Shown: positions 36,542-46,993 of the stretch, piece after piece
Numbering within the stretch: the stretch's first letter is position 1
Layout: each line of letters opens with the position of its first letter
Assembly: GCF_001548675.1 (NCBI RefSeq)
Contig: NZ_CP010834.1
Location: 1,647,501-1,711,500, forward strand
Direction of reading: 5' to 3'
Length of the DNA: 64,000 nt
Origin: Methanobrevibacter sp. YE315
Lineage (GTDB): Archaea > Methanobacteriota > Methanobacteria > Methanobacteriales > Methanobacteriaceae
Notes under the pieces: generated by a model
Seen by the model: the letters and a program-made list of their open reading frames with translations, nothing else
Told to the model about the DNA's origin: nothing
The model's database searches: none
Position numbers and translations under genes: made by a program

Positions 36542-36970
36542 CTAACATAAGTAGTAGTGTTCGTATCCACCGCCACCAAGGCTTCCGCCAAAAGTAGTGT
36601 AGAAGTTATTTGCACTTCCACCACCAATGCTTCCGCCAAGAGTGCTGTGGAAACCACTTCCACCATAGAGGGTTGGTCTTAAGGAAATATCATCGCATAA
36701 TCCTCTAGGGTTTCTTTCATGATGAGTCCAACTTAAGTCTTTAAGGTAACTCCATAAATCAGGTTTTTTAGTTGATTGGAGTACAGCTGGAGAGTCTTGA
36801 ACGATAGGTTGAGGGTCTTGAACGATAGGTTGAACATCCGGTACAATAGGTTGGTCATCTTGAATGATAAGTACGTCAGAAGTGCCAGCATCCACATCGC
36901 TAGCACAAACAAAACTAAAGCCTGCTAAGGCAATAGAAATCAAAAGTAAAGTAAATATAATCTTTCTCAT
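36542..36970 (-). CDS. Small secreted protein with QPIV repeats and Gly-rich tail
   Basis: A 142-residue exported protein. The signal peptide MRKIIFTLLLISIALAGFSF ends before a VCASDVDAG-like cleavage region. Three or four DxQPIV repeats follow (about 39-62), then WSYLKDLSWTHHERNPRG and a glycine-rich C-terminus ending in cysteine (YEHYYLC). No known family. Its promoter carries the palindrome shared with the genes at 39826 and 46418, so all three are probably controlled together. Confidence 0.7.
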   Translation of the reverse strand: MRKIIFTLLLISIALAGFSFVCASDVDAGTSDVLIIQDDQPIVPDVQPIVQDPQPIVQDSPAVLQSTKKPDLWSYLKDLSWTHHERNPRGLCDDISLRPTLYGGSGFHSTLGGSIGGGSANNFYTTFGGSLGGGGYEHYYLC

Positions 36971-37054: not shown

Positions 37055-37092
37055 ATATATAAAGTTTTTCGCATGTAAGTGCTTACTTGCAT
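37055..37092 (-). promoter_or_regulatory. Palindrome-BRE-TATA promoter, copy 1
   Basis: On the minus strand a 20-bp imperfect palindrome (plus-strand sequence ATGTAAGTGCTTACTTGCAT, 37073-37092) is followed by GCGAAAAAC (BRE) and TTTATATATGG (TATA). Arms fit RTGNAAGT-N4-ACTTNCAY. It lies about 90-120 nt upstream of the start at 36970. The same unit with the same spacing occurs at 40073-40111 and 46950-46993. Confidence 0.7.
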
Positions 37093-37493
37093 TCTTAAAT
37101 AGCTAAATAAAGACTATAATAACTATTTTTTAAGTTTAAAGTTTAAATTGAATGTTTTTAATCAAATAAAACTTTAAGAATAATTGTTCGCATTACAACA
37201 AAATAATATATGCCACATATTAATTATATGCTAAAATCAGTTATTCGATTGGAAATACTCCCAATAAACTTATTAAAAACTATAAACTGAAATATTTAGA
37301 TAATATGAAAACTAGGATAAATACAACTAGAAATACAACTAAAACATATAATTTTCATGTTTTTGAAAAACATTGTTGGAAATTGGTCTCTTTTAAAAAC
37401 ATGCGCAATTTAATCTTTACTGGGTTTTTGGTTTGAAGTGAAACTTTCACAATCAAACATTCATTTTAAAGAAAAAAAAATAAGAATTATTGT
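37093..37493. other. Intergenic DNA, no gene seen
   Basis: About 400 AT-rich bases between the palindrome promoter and the mtnA stop. A 43-codon frame starting at 37305 on the plus strand has no ribosome binding site or recognisable sequence and is not counted as a gene. Confidence 0.4.
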
Positions 37494-38423
37494 CTAAATC
37501 GGATCAATTATTCCCTTTTCAGTAATAATTCCTGTAATCAGCTCTTTTGGAGTTATATCAAATGCAGGATTTATGACTTCGGTTCCTTCAGGACAGATTC
37601 TTGCCCCTCCATAATACCTTACTTCATCACCATCCCTTTCTTCTATGACAGTATCATAAATATCGATTTCATTGTCAAAAGTGGAGTATGGAGCTGCTAC
37701 ATAAAATGGAATATCATGATATTTAGCGGCTAAAGCAACCATGAAAGATCCGACCTTATTTACAACACCGCCTCGGGCGATTCTATCAGCACCGATGACA
37801 ACCTTGTCAATCTTGCCCTGTGACATTAAAAATCCTGATGCAACATCAGGTATCAATTTAACTGGAATGTTTTCCTGCTGCATTTCCCAAACGCTTAGGC
37901 TGGCTCCCTGTCCGCGCGGACGGGTTTCATCACAGATTACATTAATGTTTTTGCCTTGTTCATGTGCTGCCCTGATTACACCCAATGCGGTTCCATAGTC
38001 AACGCATGCAAGAGCGCCTGCATTGCAGTGGGTTAGGATAGTATCGCCTTCATCAATGACTTCAGCACCGAATTTTCCAATAGCCCTATTGGTGGCCATA
38101 TCTTCTTCATACATTTTTAAGGCTTCAGTTAAAGCATTTTCACTATTAAGAACCCTATCCACTGCCCAAAATAGGTTTACGGCAGTTGGCCTTGCAGCCT
38201 TAATTTCTTCAGCTGCTTTTTCCAAGTCAACACCTTCCATATCTGCTAATGCCATTGCAAAGCCAGCAGATACTCCAATAGCTGGAGCGCCACGAACAAT
38301 CATGTCCTTAATTGCAGTAATAACATCCTGATAATTATCACAATAAACATAGGTCAATTCATCAGGAAGTTTTGTTTGATCAATAAGCTTTAATTTGTTA
38401 TCTTCCCATTCAAGTGTTTTCAT
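37494..38423 (-). CDS. mtnA: S-methyl-5-thioribose-1-phosphate isomerase (aIF2B-like)
   Basis: A 309-residue sugar-phosphate isomerase. It has MIVRGAPAIGVSAGFAMALA, the catalytic cysteine region ILTHCNAGALACVDYGTALG and the catalytic aspartate in VIGADRIARGGVVNKVGS. In methionine salvage it converts methylthioribose-1-phosphate to the ribulose form; archaeal relatives are often mislabelled translation factor eIF-2B. The start MKTLEWEDNK at 38423 has AGGTG upstream and fits the family; an upstream in-frame start adds 30 AT-driven residues. Confidence 0.88.
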   Translation of the reverse strand: MKTLEWEDNKLKLIDQTKLPDELTYVYCDNYQDVITAIKDMIVRGAPAIGVSAGFAMALADMEGVDLEKAAEEIKAARPTAVNLFWAVDRVLNSENALTEALKMYEEDMATNRAIGKFGAEVIDEGDTILTHCNAGALACVDYGTALGVIRAAHEQGKNINVICDETRPRGQGASLSVWEMQQENIPVKLIPDVASGFLMSQGKIDKVVIGADRIARGGVVNKVGSFMVALAAKYHDIPFYVAAPYSTFDNEIDIYDTVIEERDGDEVRYYGGARICPEGTEVINPAFDITPKELITGIITEKGIIDPI

Positions 38424-38572
38424 AATAACACCTAATCTATTAAAAAAAAGTTTAAAAAGTTTGAAAGCATAATTAACGTTAGTTTCTAATTTTTTTAATG
38501 TATAAAAATACAATTAAAGGTTTTATAATTATGCTTTCCCGTCTAATTTAATATCCGAAATGGATTGATTAG

Positions 38573-38593
38573 AGATGTATTAAAAATACATCT
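38573..38593. other. Perfect 9-bp hairpin between ppaC and mtnA
   Basis: AGATGTATT and AATACATCT form an inverted repeat with a 3-nt loop. It lies about 80 bp after the ppaC stop and upstream of the mtnA promoter. No T-run adjoins it on the minus strand. It may be an operator or a processing hairpin. Confidence 0.4.
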
Positions 38594-38674
38594 ACTTATT
38601 ATTTATAAACTAATCATTTATAAATCTTACTTAAAAATGTAAGAAACCCTCATTATTTAGTAATACTAAAATAA

Positions 38675-39595
38675 TTATGCATTATCTGTCATAATAGGGA
38701 CTACTTGTTTTTTACGTGAAACAACACCTACAAGTAAAACAGTGTTATCTTCTAATTCGACGTCATATGCTTTTTCAACAAGACTTGATTGTTCCCCAAG
38801 TACAATTACCTGGGAATTGCTGTTAACAATATCAGTTATCAAAAGCATGAATAAATCTAAATTTTCCTCATCAATTATCCTATTCATCTCTTCTTCAAGT
38901 TCTTCTTTCATTTCCATGACTTCATCGATGTCAGCAGTATTGACTTGATTTACAATTGATTTCACATCTTTAAAGTCAATTTGTTTTGCATCAAGAGATA
39001 GAATTTCTTCAATTGAGAAATCACTTAAATCTGTTCCTGCCTTAAGCATTTCCAGACCATATTCCTCATAGTCAATTTCTGCGATTTTTGCAAGTTTTTC
39101 AACTGCAACTTTGTCGTCTTCAGTGGTAGTTGGAGATTTCAAAAGCAAAGTGTCAGAGATAATAGCAGATAACATTAATGTAGCTATTTCTTTTGTAATT
39201 TCTACACCGTTTTCTTCATATAATTTGCATAAAATAGTTTCAGTACAGCCTACCGGTTCAAATCTTAAAAATAAAGGATATGAAGTTTCTAAAGCTAGTT
39301 TATGGTGATCTACGACTTTCAATATTTTTGCATTCTCTAGGTTATCCACAGATTCTGCAGGGGAATTGTGGTCTACCAAAATAACATTTGCATCATCTTC
39401 AACAGCATCTAAAAGTTCTGGTGCTTCAATATCCAAATAATTTAAAATAAATTCAGTTTCCTTATTGATGCCTCCTAACCTATAGGCTTTAGCATCAGTA
39501 TTTCCTAATTCATTTTCCAAGTTAGCCATTACTAAACTAGAAGTAATTGAATCACTATCGGGACTTTTATGTCCAAAAACATAAGTTTTAACCAT
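38675..39595 (-). CDS. ppaC: Manganese-dependent inorganic pyrophosphatase
   Basis: A 306-residue DHH-family (class II) pyrophosphatase. Metal ligands are visible in GHKSPDSDSITSS, ILVDHNSPAE and KVVDHHKLAL, with the C-terminal DHHA2 substrate domain ending near SRKKQVVPIM. It hydrolyses pyrophosphate to drive biosynthesis. Length is standard. Confidence 0.94.
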   Translation of the reverse strand: MVKTYVFGHKSPDSDSITSSLVMANLENELGNTDAKAYRLGGINKETEFILNYLDIEAPELLDAVEDDANVILVDHNSPAESVDNLENAKILKVVDHHKLALETSYPLFLRFEPVGCTETILCKLYEENGVEITKEIATLMLSAIISDTLLLKSPTTTEDDKVAVEKLAKIAEIDYEEYGLEMLKAGTDLSDFSIEEILSLDAKQIDFKDVKSIVNQVNTADIDEVMEMKEELEEEMNRIIDEENLDLFMLLITDIVNSNSQVIVLGEQSSLVEKAYDVELEDNTVLLVGVVSRKKQVVPIMTDNA

Positions 39596-39776
39596 ATTAT
39601 CGTTTCCTCAAAAAATTGATAAAAATAAAATTAATATCAGTTAATTATTTAATTTTCATCTCTATTTAATATTACTATGAAAAATTAGATTAGTATAAAA
39701 AATTAGATTAGTATAAAAAACTAGAAAAAAAGAACTTAGCAAATATCAATAAACATTCGCTTTCAAACATTATTAT

Positions 39777-39800
39777 TTAAATATACATTATTTCACCTCC
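39777..39800 (-). other. Strong ribosome binding site before a three-codon reading frame
   Basis: GGAGGTGAAATA (39789-39800, minus strand) is followed by ATG TAT ATT TAA (39777-39788). The site is stronger than those of many real genes here. It lies 26 nt downstream of the cysteine-rich peptide gene and probably on its transcript. It could be a minimal translated element, a decayed gene or a ribosome landing site. Confidence 0.4.
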
Positions 39801-39825
39801 AATCATTTTATATGAAATATTGTAC

Positions 39826-39978
39826 CTACATCATCCTGCTTGTGAAGCATTCACATCCTACATCAACAGGAGATAGGCCATCTATTACTGGACAATTGGA
39901 ACATCTTCCATTGTCGGAAAAATTTTCATCAAACTTATAATATTCACAGTTTCCATGTATTTTTATTAAGTTTATCAT
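39826..39978 (-). CDS. Cysteine-rich 50-residue peptide
   Basis: MINLIKIHGNCEYYKFDENF followed by SDNGRCSNCPVIDGLSPVDVGCECFTSRMM. The five cysteines (GNCEYY, GRCSNC, VGCECF) suggest a metal-binding knuckle. There is no signal peptide. A GAGGTG ribosome binding site lies 5 nt before the ATG. The promoter at 40073-40111 carries the palindrome shared with two secreted-protein genes. No family recognised. Confidence 0.7.
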   Translation of the reverse strand: MINLIKIHGNCEYYKFDENFSDNGRCSNCPVIDGLSPVDVGCECFTSRMM

Positions 39979-40072
39979 AATTACACCTCAAATCATAATT
40001 TAATAAATATTACATATGTTGCTTTAAACTTTATTGCAACATACCACACTTACAATTTAGTTTATTAAAAGA

Positions 40073-40111
40073 CATATAAATAGTTTTTCGAGTGCAAGTG
40101 CCCACTTACAT
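40073..40111 (-). promoter_or_regulatory. Palindrome-BRE-TATA promoter, copy 2
   Basis: Plus-strand GTGCAAGTGCCCACTTACAT (40092-40111) adjoins, on the minus strand, CGAAAAACTA (BRE) and TTTATATG (TATA, about 40073-40082). The expected start of transcription near 40050 gives a leader of about 70 nt for the cysteine-rich peptide gene at 39978. Confidence 0.7.
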
Positions 40112-40270
40112 CTTTAAATAATAAAAAAACGAAAAATAATGCAATATTCTGAAGATAAGAACTAATAAAATCCTAAATTAAAAATTAAATAACAAAAATG
40201 AAAAAAAAATATTAAAAGAATGAGTCTGTAAAAATTTACAGACGCAAAAAATAGAAAATATCAAGAATGT

Positions 40271-41137
40271 TTAGTAATGACTTTGTGGTGTCATTCCTAA
40301 ATGATGATCTTCGCTTTTTTTACCAGGTATTCCGTAAGCGTCCGCCCTGCATTGGGTGCATGCCCTGAATACTGGAATAATCTCTTCAACTTCTTCCCTG
40401 ACCTTTTCCATCATCATACAGTCAGGCCTTTCCAAGTCTTTCATTTTTCCCAATGGAATTAAAGGCAATACATTCATCATGGCCGCTCCACGTTTTTCAA
40501 CTTCACGGGCAATTTCAACAATATGCTCATCGTTTACGCCCGGAATTAAAACTGAGTTAACTTTAACAACCAGACCATTAGCAGCTGCCTTTTCAACACC
40601 TTCCAATTGATTTTTGATTAAGATTTCAACAGCTTCCCTGCCTTTGTAAACTTTTCCTTCGTATTTGATGAAAGAATAGATATTTTCAGCGATTGCAGGA
40701 TCAACTGCATTGATGGTTACGGTAACGGAATTTACTCCAAGTTCTGCAAGCTTATCAGCATACTTTGGTAGTAAAAGACCATTAGTACTCATACATTTTA
40801 TTAAATCCGGCTGTTCAGTGGCTAATTTTTCAAAGAATTCAAATGTTTCTTCATTGGCAAGTGAATCACCGGGACCGGCTACTCCTACAACGGCAATAGG
40901 ACCATCTGCAGTAACATCATTAATGTGAGTAATTGCATCATCAGGTTTCATTATGCAGCTTGTAACACCAGGTCTGTCTTCTTCATTGTTAATATCCCTT
41001 GTACAGAAGTTACAAAAGATATTACATTTTGGTGCAACTGGTACGTGTGCTCTTCCGACTTTATCATGCATTTTTTCATTAAAACATGGATGTGCTCTTG
41101 TAATATGTGCGAATCTTGAACCTTTATGTTCATTCAT
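40271..41137 (-). CDS. nifB: NifB-type radical SAM protein (FeS-carbide cluster synthase)
   Basis: A 288-residue stand-alone NifB. The radical SAM cluster motif is CNIFCNFC (about residues 37-44), preceded by HPCFNEKMHDKVGRAHVPVAP, and the C-terminal cysteine pair FRACTQCRADAYG binds one of the precursor clusters. NifB makes the [8Fe-9S-C] L-cluster. No nitrogenase genes are nearby; instead it is the last gene of the mmp3-6-5-15-17 operon, 67 bp after mmp17. That suggests it supplies L-cluster-like centres for MCR activation. The C-terminal NafY/NifX domain of many bacterial NifBs is absent, as usual in methanogens. Confidence 0.9.
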   Translation of the reverse strand: MNEHKGSRFAHITRAHPCFNEKMHDKVGRAHVPVAPKCNIFCNFCTRDINNEEDRPGVTSCIMKPDDAITHINDVTADGPIAVVGVAGPGDSLANEETFEFFEKLATEQPDLIKCMSTNGLLLPKYADKLAELGVNSVTVTINAVDPAIAENIYSFIKYEGKVYKGREAVEILIKNQLEGVEKAAANGLVVKVNSVLIPGVNDEHIVEIAREVEKRGAAMMNVLPLIPLGKMKDLERPDCMMMEKVREEVEEIIPVFRACTQCRADAYGIPGKKSEDHHLGMTPQSHY

Positions 41138-41204
41138 AATACCACTACTCCTAAAATATAACTCCTGTTATTTTGTATTGATACGAACAAATATATAAAC
41201 CTTT

Positions 41205-41765
41205 CTATTTGCCGTTGTTCAATTCGTCAATATACTCATGAGCTTTTTCAATCCATTCATCTTTAATTAACTCGTCAGTAGCTACAACAGTTACAATATC
41301 TTCAGTAGACAAATCTTTAATAATTTTAAAGCCTTCCGGCAATATTCTAAAGATTGCATCGTAAATACGCCTTTGCAAATTAGAATGAGGGTCATCAACA
41401 ACGACTGATTTTAAATCTGTATGGTCCCCATTAAGTTCAAGCTGATACCTATTAGGCTGATAGATTTCATCCCTTGAAAATTCCATCCATAATATCTTTA
41501 GGATGTTTGGAAGATAGTTCTCATTATCAATCAAAATCATAGTTTTATCGTTGGCCTTATCATAGGACAAATTAGCTACATCCTCAAATTTAACTGCAGT
41601 AGAAGTCTTTCTCATTTTAATAGCTAAAACAAATACAGGGTCATCTGGATTAACATAAGCTTTCAAATCATCAACGGAAGCTCCCAAAACTAAATCCTGA
41701 AAGATCTGTTTGATGATGATTTCATAAACTTCTGCACCTCTTTCATCATAGCATTCAACTAACAT
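41205..41765 (-). CDS. mmp17: Methanogenesis marker protein 17
   Basis: A 186-residue protein, MLVECYDERGAEVYEIIIKQ, matching the methanogenesis marker 17 family. In Methanococcus maripaludis Mmp17 copurifies with McrC, Mmp3, Mmp7 and component A2 in the ATP-driven MCR activation complex. The ATG at 41763-41765 is chosen over a preceding TTG. It follows mmp15 by about 20 bp. Confidence 0.85.
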   Translation of the reverse strand: MLVECYDERGAEVYEIIIKQIFQDLVLGASVDDLKAYVNPDDPVFVLAIKMRKTSTAVKFEDVANLSYDKANDKTMILIDNENYLPNILKILWMEFSRDEIYQPNRYQLELNGDHTDLKSVVVDDPHSNLQRRIYDAIFRILPEGFKIIKDLSTEDIVTVVATDELIKDEWIEKAHEYIDELNNGK

Positions 41766-41787
41766 CAAATCAACCCTTTAAAAATAT

Positions 41788-43029
41788 TTATTTATTATCT
41801 TGTCTGTGTCCCATTCCAGAAACCAAAAGGGCTGCTCCTACAGCACCAATGTGTTGGGAATATTCAGGAACAATAACTTCAATTCCACCTAAAGTTTCAC
41901 TTACTGCTTCTACAAGACCTGAAATTAAACTAGTTCCTCCCACTTGGATTAAAGGTTCACGAATGTCAATTTCTTGCAATTGTTGTTCATAAACTTGTTC
42001 AGAAACGGAGTGACATGCTGCAGCAGCAACATCAGCTTTAGAACCCCCTGCCGCAAGTGTGGTAACGAGGTCTTGAATACCAAATACGATACAGTATGAA
42101 TTCAACATAGCTTTTCTCCAGTCACCTTGCACAGCTAACGGACCGAGTTCTGTAATATCCACATCCAATCTGCGGGAAGTCATATCCAAGAATCTTCCGG
42201 ATGCACCTGCACAGATACCACCCATGGTAAAGTTATCCGGAATACCGTTGTTAACGGTAATAACCTTGTTATCCATACCACCAATATCCAATACTGTAGC
42301 TTCGCCTTTTTGGCAATCAGCCAAATATACTGCACCTTTTGCGTTAACGGACAATTCTTCCTGAATGAGTTCTGCATTAAATTCCTGACCCATAGTGAAT
42401 CTACCATAACCAGTAGTTCCAATACCGTCTACATCATCCCATCCATAATCAGTATTTGAAAATGCTTCAGCAGCAGCTGTTTTTGCAGATTCAATGATGT
42501 CCTTAGTAGCTGTCCATCCGGTACCAATAACTTGGTTGTTTTCCATAAGTACAGCTTTTGTAGTGGTTGAACCTGAGTCTAAACCAAGAGTAAGTCCTTC
42601 TTGTTTTTCACGAGCAAGAATGTTTCTACGAGTTACAGTAGTAGCCAATGCTTCCATACGGATGAACAGTTCATCTGCTTTTGTTCTTTCAGTAAATGAA
42701 TAAGTAACTACAGGAATACGTGTATTGTTTTGGATAAATCTCCTGACTTCATTTCTAACTAATGCTGCTTCAGCACATCTAAAACAGGTTGCAATAAATA
42801 CTGCATCCGGTTTGGATCTGCCTTCAACAATAGCCATAGCTCTTGCAATCATTAATTTCAAACTTGAACTTTGAGCTGAAAATCCAAATTTCTCATAAGA
42901 CTCATCAATGTAATCCAAATCAATTTCAGGAAGAACAATTTCAGCACCGAACTTATTTGCCGCTTTTTCAATTTCCTTTTGAATTCCACTATATTCTGTT
43001 CCACATGAAACTAAAGCAATTTTAACCAT
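41788..43029 (-). CDS. mmp15: Methanogenesis marker protein 15 (BcrAD/BadFG-type ATPase)
   Basis: A 413-residue ASKHA-fold ATPase related to activators of 2-hydroxyacyl-CoA dehydratases. It has the phosphate loop [13 protein letters not shown] (about residues 143-155), a second phosphate motif [14 protein letters not shown] and the cluster-type cysteine region [14 protein letters not shown]. Such activators use ATP to drive low-potential electron transfer, so a role in reductive MCR activation is attractive but inferred. GAGGAGG precedes the ATG at 43029; it begins 4 nt after mmp5 ends. Confidence 0.87.
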
Positions 43030-43033
43030 ATTA

Positions 43034-43489
43034 TTATTCCTCCTCGCCAGTTTCTTCAAGAGAATCTACAAATTCGTTAATATCATTTAACATGACATAA
43101 GTTTCATCCTGATTGGTAGGATAATTAAGCTCCAAAACAGGGATGCCTTTTGTTCTAAGCAAAAATATTGATAGTTCATTAGTTCTTGCACAACCGATAC
43201 AACCAAAACCATATGGTGCACCATCAACAAGGATTGCTGCTTCTGCTTCGTCTATAAGAGGGCCAATAATTGCCATTCTACCACGAACACCAGAAGGAAC
43301 CTCAATAGCTGCATATTTAAGTCCTTTAATTGGATCATCTTCTGTAATATTCATTGGAGGAGAATCAATCTCCGGATCTTTAATCTTTTGTCTAATTTGT
43401 TTTTGAAGAACTAAAGGAGTATGACCTTTTCTCTCAAGTAAATCTGCCAATATTAATGAATTTGGAGGATAAATAGCTATTTTAACCAT
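43034..43489 (-). CDS. mmp5: Methanogenesis marker protein 5
   Basis: A 151-residue protein, [20 protein letters not shown], of the methanogenesis marker 5 family. A conserved [15 protein letters not shown] segment holds a cysteine pair that could bind an Fe-S cluster. It sits between mmp6 and mmp15 in a tightly packed operon. The biochemical role is unknown. Confidence 0.83.
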
Positions 43490-43497
43490 ATTTTCAC

Positions 43498-43968
43498 CTA
43501 CTCTTTATTTTCTAAACATTCATTCATGATTTTTTTAAATTCGTCAACGCTAACTGGTTTTTTCTCTTCCAATTCGACTTCTTTAGGATTCTCTAAAGCC
43601 TCAGAAACAAAACCAAGTATTCTATATTCCTTTTCCATTTGATGGAAACCTTCTCTAGGACCAAACCTATGACCTCTACATCTCCTAGGGTCACCTGGAG
43701 CAAATCCTCTTTCTTTAGTGAAAATGTGATTTGGATCTAGTTTTCTAATCTCCTCAATAGCTTTGTAAACATGCTCGCTTTTGCCGCTAATCATAGAACC
43801 ATAGCAAGTATTTTTAATGGTAAGCGGTAAGCCAAGCATATGAAACTCACTGACTATTTGCTGTTCACTTACATGAGCTCCCGGCCCAATAAAAATCATA
43901 CGAGTAATTACATCAGGATCCCAATCTTCTTTACCCAAATCAGGACTCATGGTTAGATTCTGTGACAT
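43498..43968 (-). CDS. mmp6: Methanogenesis marker protein 6
   Basis: A 156-residue protein with [20 protein letters not shown] and [13 protein letters not shown], matching methanogenesis marker 6; [16 protein letters not shown] follows. The start at 43968 has GGGAG upstream and overlaps the end of mmp3 by 29 bp, so translation is likely coupled. Function is unknown but always tied to methanogens with MCR. Confidence 0.83.
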
Positions 43969-45487
43969 ATACTACAACTCCCTCTTTTAATTTTTCAAGA
44001 TGGTCATAATCAGAAGTGATATCCCCAATAATATTTGTTGCTTCAAAACTTTCAGCAGTTGGTCCAAATTCTGTATTATCCTCAAATCTAATACCAATCA
44101 GACCAGCGCTTTTTGAAGCCATATTTGTAATACCAATTTGACCTCTAATAACATTATCAACTGGGTTATTTTCAGGAATTAAACCTTTAGCTAACTTCTT
44201 ATCCCCTTCAAAAATAACAATGTGCATTCCAGGAACTGCAAAATGAACTTTAATTTTGCCAACAGGATTTTCTAAAAGACCTGATAAAAATTTAAAGTAC
44301 CTTACAGATCTAGGTGCGTTATCGACAAACTTAATTGTACATAACTCCTCTTTCTTAACAGCTTTAGTAATTACATTTCCTTCTTTTAGGATATCAATTG
44401 TATGTTTAGGATTCTGTTCAACGATTATCGCATCATCATCAATCAATCCATCGATGAGATGTTCAACACCAACTGCTGACAACATTTCAGTAGCTTCTTT
44501 TTGAGTTTTATTTAACAACATTAATCTTTGCTGTTCGGATTTTACTGTTACAAAGTCATTTTCTTTTGCAATATCAATTATTTCCATACCGTTGACAATT
44601 CTACCTACAGTAGTGTGATTCGGAGACAATACTCTATTTTCACGATAGATAAACAGTTTTCCAACACCCACACCATCGTTTCTTACGGTTATTGTTCCCC
44701 TAGTCCTTTGAGTGGTGTGTTCTTTTGGCTTATCAATACCCTGCAGGTCATAAAAGCCTATAAATGATTCGCTATCAAAAGAGACTTTAATTCTCCTATC
44801 CTTTACAAGTGAGAATAAGTGTTCAACACAGACAGGTGAACTTTCATCTATTTCAAAGGAAATATAAGTGTACAGCTCATTTCCTTCTTCCAGAACAGTG
44901 CTTAAATCGGATACTGAATAACTGTCTGTTGTTGTGCTTCTTTCGATGATTGGCTCAATGCCCGTAACCTTATCATCATCAGTTAAGTTCTCTAAAGTTT
45001 TCCTACCACCAATGACACGGGCAAAAATACCCTTATTATAAGGAGGCACACTATAAACATTAGTTGTATTCCCTTTAAGCATTATTAAATGAGTAGACTC
45101 ATTACTAAAACTAGACAAACTTAAAACTACATCTCCTTCATAGTATTTGTATTCGTCGGAAGTTGGTTCCAAATCAGTCACTATTGGACCAATAGCGACC
45201 TCAGTAGGAGTAGACCACCTGATGTCCAAATCAATGAATTGACTATATTGATTTTTCCAAACATCAATAAGCGGCTTTGCTTCCTCAGATTCATCTAATT
45301 GGATAATAATGGAACCTTTATTAGTTTTGATTTTATATTTGCTAATATTTTTCTCCAGTTCCTTTTTACCCTTAATTAGACAGACAATACTGCCAGGAGT
45401 ATATGGAGCATCAGTTTCATCAATCACGTCTTGGATTGTTGAAGCATCTGCTACATCCATTTCTTCTCCATTAATTTTAATTAACAT
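43940..45487 (-). CDS. mmp3: Methanogenesis marker protein 3
   Basis: A 515-residue protein of the methanogenesis marker 3 family. An N-terminal ubiquitin/ThiS-like stretch (MLIKINGEEMDVADASTIQD) leads into cyclophilin-like segments (GVGVGKLFIYRENR, VHFAVPGMHIVIFEGDKK). Mmp3 is part of the MCR activation complex in M. maripaludis. It is the first gene of the marker operon and has AGGAGA before the ATG. The operon promoter lies in the AT-rich DNA around 45500-45580. Confidence 0.85.
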   Translation of the reverse strand: MLIKINGEEMDVADASTIQDVIDETDAPYTPGSIVCLIKGKKELEKNISKYKIKTNKGSIIIQLDESEEAKPLIDVWKNQYSQFIDLDIRWSTPTEVAIGPIVTDLEPTSDEYKYYEGDVVLSLSSFSNESTHLIMLKGNTTNVYSVPPYNKGIFARVIGGRKTLENLTDDDKVTGIEPIIERSTTTDSYSVSDLSTVLEEGNELYTYISFEIDESSPVCVEHLFSLVKDRRIKVSFDSESFIGFYDLQGIDKPKEHTTQRTRGTITVRNDGVGVGKLFIYRENRVLSPNHTTVGRIVNGMEIIDIAKENDFVTVKSEQQRLMLLNKTQKEATEMLSAVGVEHLIDGLIDDDAIIVEQNPKHTIDILKEGNVITKAVKKEELCTIKFVDNAPRSVRYFKFLSGLLENPVGKIKVHFAVPGMHIVIFEGDKKLAKGLIPENNPVDNVIRGQIGITNMASKSAGLIGIRFEDNTEFGPTAESFEATNIIGDITSDYDHLEKLKEGVVVYVTESNHES

Positions 45488-45612
45488 ACAATCTCCTAAT
45501 AAGAATTTTTAATATTATATATTTATTAGTTTATTATATATTAAAATTATTTATTTGATTTGGAAAAGATTTATTAACACATACTAATAACAATTAAGTA
45601 ATGGTGAAAATC

Positions 45613-46350
45613 ATGGAATTTAATAAAAAACATATTATTTCTTTACTAATTATTCTGATTATAGGACTTGGAGTGATATCCATAGCCAGTGCATATACAG
45701 GAACCGGCTTTTCACACAACATTCCATTTTCAAAATACCATGATTTGTCCAATTCAGAAATCTTAAACAAATACGAAGATACGGACTGCCATATTGAAAG
45801 ATACGGCGTTTGCACACAAGTTGTTGACGGAGATACAATCTATCTGGATAGTGGTGAAAAAGTACGTTTTGTTGGAGTGAATACACCTGAACGGGGAGTT
45901 GAAGGATATATCGCTTCAAAAAACTTTGTTCAGAAATTCTGCTTAAATAAAAAAATCGGATTGGATGTTGATGATTCAAAACACAGCGACAAATACGGAC
46001 GAACATTGGCTGTCGTTATTGTTGATGGAAAAAACCTAAATGAGATGCTTTTAAAAGAGGGCCTTGCAGAAGTAATGTACATACCTCCAAGCGAATTCTA
46101 TCCATTTAACTGGGCAGGCGATTCAACCCACATCCCAAACTCACATACCACTTATTCAAATACTCAAACCGACAGCGATTCTGGATCCGGCGATTCAGGA
46201 AGTTATATCGGCAACTCCAACTCTGGAAAATTCCATAAGAACACATGCAAATGGGGTCAAAAAACAGCGGAGCACAACAGAGTATACTTTAACAGCAGAA
46301 ATGATGCGATAAGCCAAGGATATCAGCCGTGCAAAGTCTGCAATCCATAA
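45613..46350 (+). CDS. Secreted thermonuclease with C-terminal zinc-type cysteine motif
   Basis: A 245-residue exported nuclease. A signal peptide (MEFNKKHIISLLIILIIGLG) is followed by an SNase domain (about 65-165) with VVDGDTIYLDSGEKVRFVGV, NTPERG and DKYGRTLAVV; the calcium and catalytic residues D, R and E can be placed. A Ser/Asp/Gly linker leads to GKFHKNTCKWGQ...CKVCNP, an Ada-like metal-binding tail. It probably degrades extracellular DNA or RNA. The second ATG (45613) is preferred because GGTGAAAA lies correctly before it. Confidence 0.85.
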   Translation: MEFNKKHIISLLIILIIGLGVISIASAYTGTGFSHNIPFSKYHDLSNSEILNKYEDTDCHIERYGVCTQVVDGDTIYLDSGEKVRFVGVNTPERGVEGYIASKNFVQKFCLNKKIGLDVDDSKHSDKYGRTLAVVIVDGKNLNEMLLKEGLAEVMYIPPSEFYPFNWAGDSTHIPNSHTTYSNTQTDSDSGSGDSGSYIGNSNSGKFHKNTCKWGQKTAEHNRVYFNSRNDAISQGYQPCKVCNP

Positions 46351-46417
46351 AATAAGATTCATCAAATAAATTTTTTAAAAAAAAAGTAAATAAAAAAAGA
46401 TAGGTAGGGGAAGTTAC

Positions 46418-46882
46418 CTATCTTCTTTTGAGAGAGCATGCTCCTAAGACTGCGGATACTGCTAATAATGCTAAGATTGGGTTTCCAGTAGCGTGTTGGT
46501 GGACTGGACTGTGTTGTACAGTTGCATTAACAGTTTTGTGGGTTGTGTTATGAGATACGTTTCCCATGTATGGGTGGCGTTCATCGTGATTTGCATCAGG
46601 TGGGATGATGTATCTTGCAGGAGCTGATTCGTTTTTGTATGGGTGTTGTTCGTCATGATTTGCATCAGGTGGGATGATGAATTTATCATGGGTGGAGTTT
46701 GTTCCGTTCATAAGGTCAGTTGTGTTTGTTGTGTTTGTTACGTTGTTGAGATTGTTTGCGCTTATTACTATTTTGTCGTTTCCGATTGTTTGTCCAGCAT
46801 GGTCAGCTGCACATACAGCACCTGCTGAGATAAGTACTAAAAATATTGCCATTATTGATAGAATTTTGCTGTTGAATTTCAT
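46418..46882 (-). CDS. Small His-rich secreted/surface-anchored protein
   Basis: A 154-residue exported protein. The signal peptide MKFNSKILSIMAIFLVLISA ends near VCAAD. Two copies of a 14-residue unit, IIPPDANHDEQHPY and IIPPDANHDERHPY (about 70-105), are followed by an Asn/Thr/His-rich stretch and a C-terminal hydrophobic helix GNPILALLAVSAVLGACSLK ending RR, the form of an archaeal surface anchor. The histidine/aspartate units could bind metal. GGAGGAAT precedes the ATG. Its promoter has palindrome copy 3. Confidence 0.72.
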   Translation of the reverse strand: MKFNSKILSIMAIFLVLISAGAVCAADHAGQTIGNDKIVISANNLNNVTNTTNTTDLMNGTNSTHDKFIIPPDANHDEQHPYKNESAPARYIIPPDANHDERHPYMGNVSHNTTHKTVNATVQHSPVHQHATGNPILALLAVSAVLGACSLKRR

Positions 46883-46949
46883 TTTGATTCCTCCGAATTT
46901 TTTGGATACAGGGAAATTAACTGTCCTCGTACAGTTTAATTATATAAAA

Positions 46950-46993
46950 ACAGTAGTATATAAAGTTTTTCGAGTGTAAGTGCCCACTTGCAC
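46950..46993 (-). promoter_or_regulatory. Palindrome-BRE-TATA promoter, copy 3
   Basis: Plus-strand GTGTAAGTGCCCACTTGCAC (46974-46993) adjoins, on the minus strand, TCGAAAAAC (BRE) and TTTATATACTAC (TATA, about 46952-46964). The unit matches copies at 37055 and 40073 in sequence and spacing. The leader to the ATG at 46882 is about 50 nt. Confidence 0.72.

Follow-up and report, generated by a model that had tools for sequence, protein, structure and literature searches.

A palindrome joined to the BRE and TATA box of many secreted-protein genes in gut methanogens, and its probable TetR-family reader

Three promoters in a 64-kb stretch of the Methanobrevibacter sp. YE315 chromosome carry the same 20-bp palindrome next to their BRE and TATA box. 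Which genes does this element serve, and which protein reads it? The stretch, called here the window (G000:C1:1647501-1711500), belongs to a genome of 2,273,296 bp assembled in a single contig (G000). An earlier note on this DNA had placed the three palindromes correctly. They read on the minus strand, and (T/G)CGAAAAAC and a TATA box come behind each of them. The description that the note gave of the open reading frames downstream also holds. The features are as follows.

37073..37092, minus strand: putative palindromic operator 1, ATGCAAGT-AAGC-ACTTACAT in promoter orientation (sequence reading; genome and genus scans).
37056..37071, minus strand: core promoter of operator 1, BRE CGAAAAAC at 37064-37071 and TATA box TTTATATA at 37056-37063.
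36542..36970, minus strand: target of operator 1, a 142-aa secreted protein with QPIV repeats; start codon 102 nt from the palindrome.
40092..40111, minus strand: putative palindromic operator 2, ATGTAAGT-GGGC-ACTTGCAC in promoter orientation (sequence reading; genome and genus scans).
40073..40090, minus strand: core promoter of operator 2, BRE CGAAAAAC at 40083-40090 and TATA box TTTATATG at 40073-40080.
39826..39978, minus strand: target of operator 2, a 50-aa protein with five Cys; start codon 113 nt from the palindrome.
46974..46993, minus strand: putative palindromic operator 3, GTGCAAGT-GGGC-ACTTACAC in promoter orientation (sequence reading; genome and genus scans).
46957..46972, minus strand: core promoter of operator 3, BRE CGAAAAAC at 46965-46972 and TATA box TTTATATA at 46957-46964.
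46418..46882, minus strand: target of operator 3, a 154-aa His-rich secreted protein with the C-terminus TGNPI...KRR.

The spacing, described before as the same throughout, is indeed identical between palindrome and BRE at all three sites, but the TATA box behind the palindrome at 40092-40111 starts 11 nt after it, not 9. Within the whole 64-kb window, CGAAAANN[TA]TTATA is found nowhere except at two of the three sites, and operator 2 fits with a 2-nt shift. The QPIV-repeat protein has no match in Pfam or NCBIfam, and the N-terminus of the cysteine-rich protein does not resemble a signal peptide. The same module also fronts genomic paralogues of the His-rich protein. Beside the latter lies a secreted-looking gene (45613-46350), by eye like staphylococcal-type nucleases, without the module; the set is thus not simply that of all secreted proteins.

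Scans of the genome and of its relatives show that the module is real and more widespread than the window suggested. It consists of the palindrome RTGYAAGT-RRGY-ACTTRCAY, 1-2 nt, and then BRE CGAAAAAC and a TTTATATA box. In G000, RTGNAAGTNNNNACTTNCAY occurs 15 times, against none for the reversed control, and TGNAAGTNNNNACTTNCANNCGNAAA (the palindrome and CGNAAA at fixed spacing, at most one mismatch) gives 21 matches, one of them a site read in reverse, against none for the controls. With up to two mismatches the module is found at about 28 places in the 2.27 Mb, and in nearly all of them CGAAAA and TTTATATA lie at a constant distance behind the palindrome. A matrix built from 120 sites places the BRE at +21..+26 and the TATA box at +29..+36, with T-tracts at -7..-5 and about -18..-12; there, as at the window sites, a purine-rich BRE stands directly upstream of the TATA box at a fixed distance, as expected of archaeal promoters. 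The palindrome is asymmetric at its two central bases: of 141 strong sites, 130 have AG, GG or TG there and one has CT. The module is therefore locked in position and orientation relative to the promoter. Two pairs of palindromes about 60 bp apart lie in intergenic DNA without the usual BRE and TATA box (L048 in G006:C6, and G000:C1:1411773-1411855).

The module is present in 49 of 67 congeners and in two more genera of the family (g23 and g26), and absent from the remaining 14 genera of the sample. Across genomes, the reversed control gave almost no matches. Beyond the family, a single bare palindrome turned up, lacking the promoter part, and viral contigs held no exact match to the module. 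One g23 genome of 3.1 Mb (G121) has 50 matches, more than twice those of any other genome.

What the module fronts seems mostly exported. Among first downstream reading frames with a ribosome-binding site, 53 of 78 look like signal-peptide proteins when judged by a simple rule on hydrophobicity in place of a dedicated predictor, against 7 of 53 genes of the window. This supports the idea of the earlier note that the palindrome recurs as a unit with its promoter and so points to a single regulator, here for envelope or secreted proteins. The targets in G000 are mostly unrelated secreted or surface proteins, several anchored like that of 46418-46882; they include chagasin-type inhibitors (PF09394), proteins with adhesin-like POMP repeats (TIGR01376), a POT-family peptide transporter (PF00854) and a DUF2207_C-type gene, to which relatives add a 60-aa Zn-ribbon gene in a Zn-ribbon/DUF2207_C operon. 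A metal-related theme, also put forward before, finds no support in these families, which bring protease inhibitors, adhesin-like proteins, a peptide transporter and cytoplasmic proteins as well. In G140 and G141 a single multiplied secreted family stands behind most sites. Four intact modules of the YE315 genome (G000:C1 157610, 162133, 175582 and 182162) front no clear reading frame, or one that is very short or degenerate. This suggests that they precede dead or dying secreted-protein genes, and that targets are born and lost fast; Rfam found no match in orphan regions of this kind. At four g23 loci (L266, L268, L269 and L267), where the module lies directly behind the candidate regulator described below, it is followed by a conserved stretch that contains hairpins (GTGTGA...TCACAC; ATTACTGTA...TACAGTAAT) but no convincing reading frame. 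This stretch is perhaps a small RNA; Rfam gave no match for related loci.

Such a pattern could arise without any regulator, if the palindrome had been carried along as a promoter cassette was copied from one secreted-protein gene to another. Some sites do front recent paralogues with common leaders (G000 sites 229314, 230190 and 230992; 175582 and 182162), and to this extent the description of palindrome and promoter as one inherited module stands. Most sites, on the other hand, front unrelated genes and resemble each other in little except the module, which, given the constant spacing, suggests selection on position. The bases of the palindrome and its spacing are kept across three genera, and the palindrome takes a different promoter position in certain TetR genes. 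Mere copying is thus very improbable.

The same TetR genes point to the reader. In G018 (L036) the palindrome immediately precedes the start codon of a TetR gene, and among the four TetR genes of G000 its closest homologue, which we call TetR-S, encodes 196 aa on the minus strand outside the window (G000:C1:1944081-1944668). TetR-S belongs to the TetR family, its TetR_N domain (PF00440) scoring 43.1 bits for a cut-off of 24. Its AlphaFold model (pLDDT 87.3) has nine helices in the all-helical two-domain fold of the family, and the top Foldseek matches are TetR proteins over the full length. Its named close relatives come nearly all from Methanobrevibacter, many of them from ruminants. TetR-S genes form one clade (97/99), whose sister clade holds TetR genes linked to YhgE. 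The helix-turn-helix is conserved (ATTKKIAxEAxVNEVTIFRKF.NK), and most residues that are invariant in the group, down to 35% identity, lie in it. Three TetR-S frames have in-frame stops, from either decay or sequencing error, in genomes that still have sites (G014:C1:1232343-1232915, G002:C71:65045-65614 and G024:C1:21377-21931). In G007, G031 and a named relative (L131, L136, L162), TetR-S lies near genes for a phosphopantetheinyl-transferase-like protein, a large membrane protein and a small ATPase-like protein. This neighbourhood resembles an accessory cluster associated with NRPS in M. ruminantium (PMC2812497); a link to peptide signalling is speculation.

Three lines of evidence tie TetR-S to the palindrome. 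First, 19 of 34 TetR-S genes (counting L276, which also counts as a sister gene) have a palindrome at 1.5 kb or less, often just behind the stop codon, against 3 of 55 other TetR genes (Fisher 1.3e-7), and these three are distant members of the TetR-S group; the remaining 15 TetR-S genes, that of G000 included, have none within this distance. Second, all eight sister TetR genes examined have the palindrome just before the start codon, one of them with two mismatches, where shuffled sequences gave about 0.16 hits per 4 kb. Four of the eight come from genera without the module (G096, G099, G158 and G162). Most are followed by a YhgE/Pip gene (TIGR03061 in L277), which is absent beside TetR-S in G000, so that the latter does not form an operon of this type. 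Third, module sites are found in 36 of 36 congeners with TetR-S and in 13 of 31 without it (Fisher 2e-8), and in g23 in 10 of 10 genomes with TetR-S and 3 of 9 without; both are raw counts, in which related genomes are tallied singly and gaps in MAGs weigh as absences.

Two further ideas were set aside. Autoregulation of TetR-S does not fit, because the palindrome is absent upstream of most TetR-S starts and, where near, usually follows the gene. TetR types like those of L058, L059 and L060 had no palindrome in the 3-kb loci scanned. In three cases a gene of one of the other TetR types has a site at about 2 kb or closer; two of these genes are in G007 and the third is in G141 (L293).

A different DNA-binding protein might read the palindrome, while TetR-S would only often lie near it or belong to the regulon itself. 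The site behind TetR-S serves, in many genomes, the gene that follows and not TetR-S, and sites occur without a detectable TetR-S in several genomes, G026 among them, some of which are nearly complete (G006, with ten matches, G141 and G148). In the latter, TetR-S may be missing from the assembly, recently lost, or replaced; they have no TetR type in common. Such a reader would nevertheless have to account for the palindrome that eight sister TetR genes, which share the helix-turn-helix, have in their own promoters, including in genera without the module, and for an association seen with no other TetR type. We regard it as unlikely. The sequence comparisons favour TetR-S: very probably, this protein reads the palindrome as the operator of a regulon that a few related methanogen genera have in common. 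Our confidence is high and stops short of certainty because nearly complete genomes with sites yield no match to TetR-S.

If TetR-S is the reader, a dimer would bind the 20-bp palindrome by its conserved helix-turn-helix. An AG centre makes a second, overlapping palindrome (GTRAGY/RCTTAC), so that two dimers might bind, as described for QacR and FadRSa (PMC6449355). Since the putative operator lies 1-2 nt upstream of the BRE of a near-consensus core promoter, TetR-S would control the loading of TFB and TBP, and a small molecule on its C-terminal domain would presumably alter DNA binding.

The direction of this control is finely balanced. TetR-S may be an activator that sits ahead of the BRE, always on one face of the helix, and recruits TFB or TBP, while its YhgE-linked sisters repress themselves. 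The spacing is constant and the orientation locked over unrelated genes, known archaeal activators typically bind upstream of BRE/TATA (PMC6737238), and TetR-type activators are known, such as FasR (PMC7382501). The operators of the sister genes, in contrast, are in the classical repressor position, and near-consensus core promoters should not need help. TetR proteins are mostly repressors. Taken as a whole, the activator scheme is plausible and somewhat less than an even bet. On the effect on TFB, we lean slightly towards repression, relieved by the ligand and exerted by blocking TFB, over its recruitment, because of the position of the sister operators and the quality of the core promoters.

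These patterns also suggest a history. The operator would first have served a TetR-YhgE/Pip operon for its autoregulation, from a place between the TATA box and the start codon; in a few gut-associated genera a TetR copy would then have lost its link to YhgE, and many secreted-protein genes would have taken up the operator ahead of their BRE. We give roughly even chances to the idea that a local autorepressor operator was thus rewired into a positional, orientation-locked element, by which a fast-changing repertoire of secreted and adhesin-like proteins of gut methanogens came under one TetR regulator, with TetR-S as a master switch of the cell surface, possibly an activator.

Palindromic operators read by TetR regulators are a familiar theme, in archaea too. 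What is new is the operator, its likely regulator, the dispersed regulon of secreted proteins and the fixed geometry next to the BRE. The literature that we searched, which held few subscription papers, contained no earlier description of this operator, nor any regulator or operator for the secreted and adhesin-like proteins of gut methanogens. A named operator with a named TetR protein makes the control of these proteins directly testable. We may also have here an example of a site of autoregulation turning into a regulon-wide archaeal promoter element. Such surface proteins are regarded as mediators of contact with hosts and partner microbes (PMC13135261), and their control thus bears on gut colonisation and methane mitigation. 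A lauric-acid transcriptome of M. ruminantium has many adhesin-like genes among those with raised expression (PMC5816558); we make no link between these genes and the few sites in that lineage.

Among systems that resemble this one, the TetR-YhgE/Pip operons of Methanobacteriaceae (L138, L168, L274, L276-L278) have the helix-turn-helix of TetR-S and the palindrome of the module. In them the palindrome lies between the TATA box and the TetR start, whereas the regulon has it ahead of the BRE and at other genes; no YhgE follows TetR-S at the loci read. Large dispersed regulons run by TetR-fold proteins are known from Vibrio (LuxR, HapR and SmcR), and the fold matches of TetR-S include LuxR-DNA structures whose labels name repression and activation. 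These proteins are bacterial, with other operators and promoters, and the comparison is one of fold and of dispersed regulons, not of quorum systems. As proposed for TetR-S in the module, Tar (TK0271) of Thermococcus kodakarensis binds a palindrome upstream of BRE/TATA at several promoters. Tar and Ptr2 of Methanocaldococcus are known activators with operators and targets unlike those of the module; the likeness is in promoter position (PMC6737238).

By sequence profile and fold, the best solved relatives of TetR-S are FadR proteins of the Bacillus type (3whb, 5gpa, 6azh), at only about 20% identity. TetR-S is no FadR in the strict sense: it scores 39.7 bits with the NCBIfam FadR equivalog (NF053878), below the cut-off of 200, and no fatty-acid metabolism gene is among the targets read. 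FadRSa of Sulfolobus acidocaldarius, whose structure with lauroyl-CoA (6el2) is also among the fold matches, is an archaeal TetR protein acting on semi-palindromic sites, as proposed for TetR-S (PMC6449355). FadRSa represses one 30-kb fatty-acid cluster through four sites with a 16-bp motif (PMC6449355), whereas TetR-S would serve about 28 dispersed promoters of secreted proteins through another operator.
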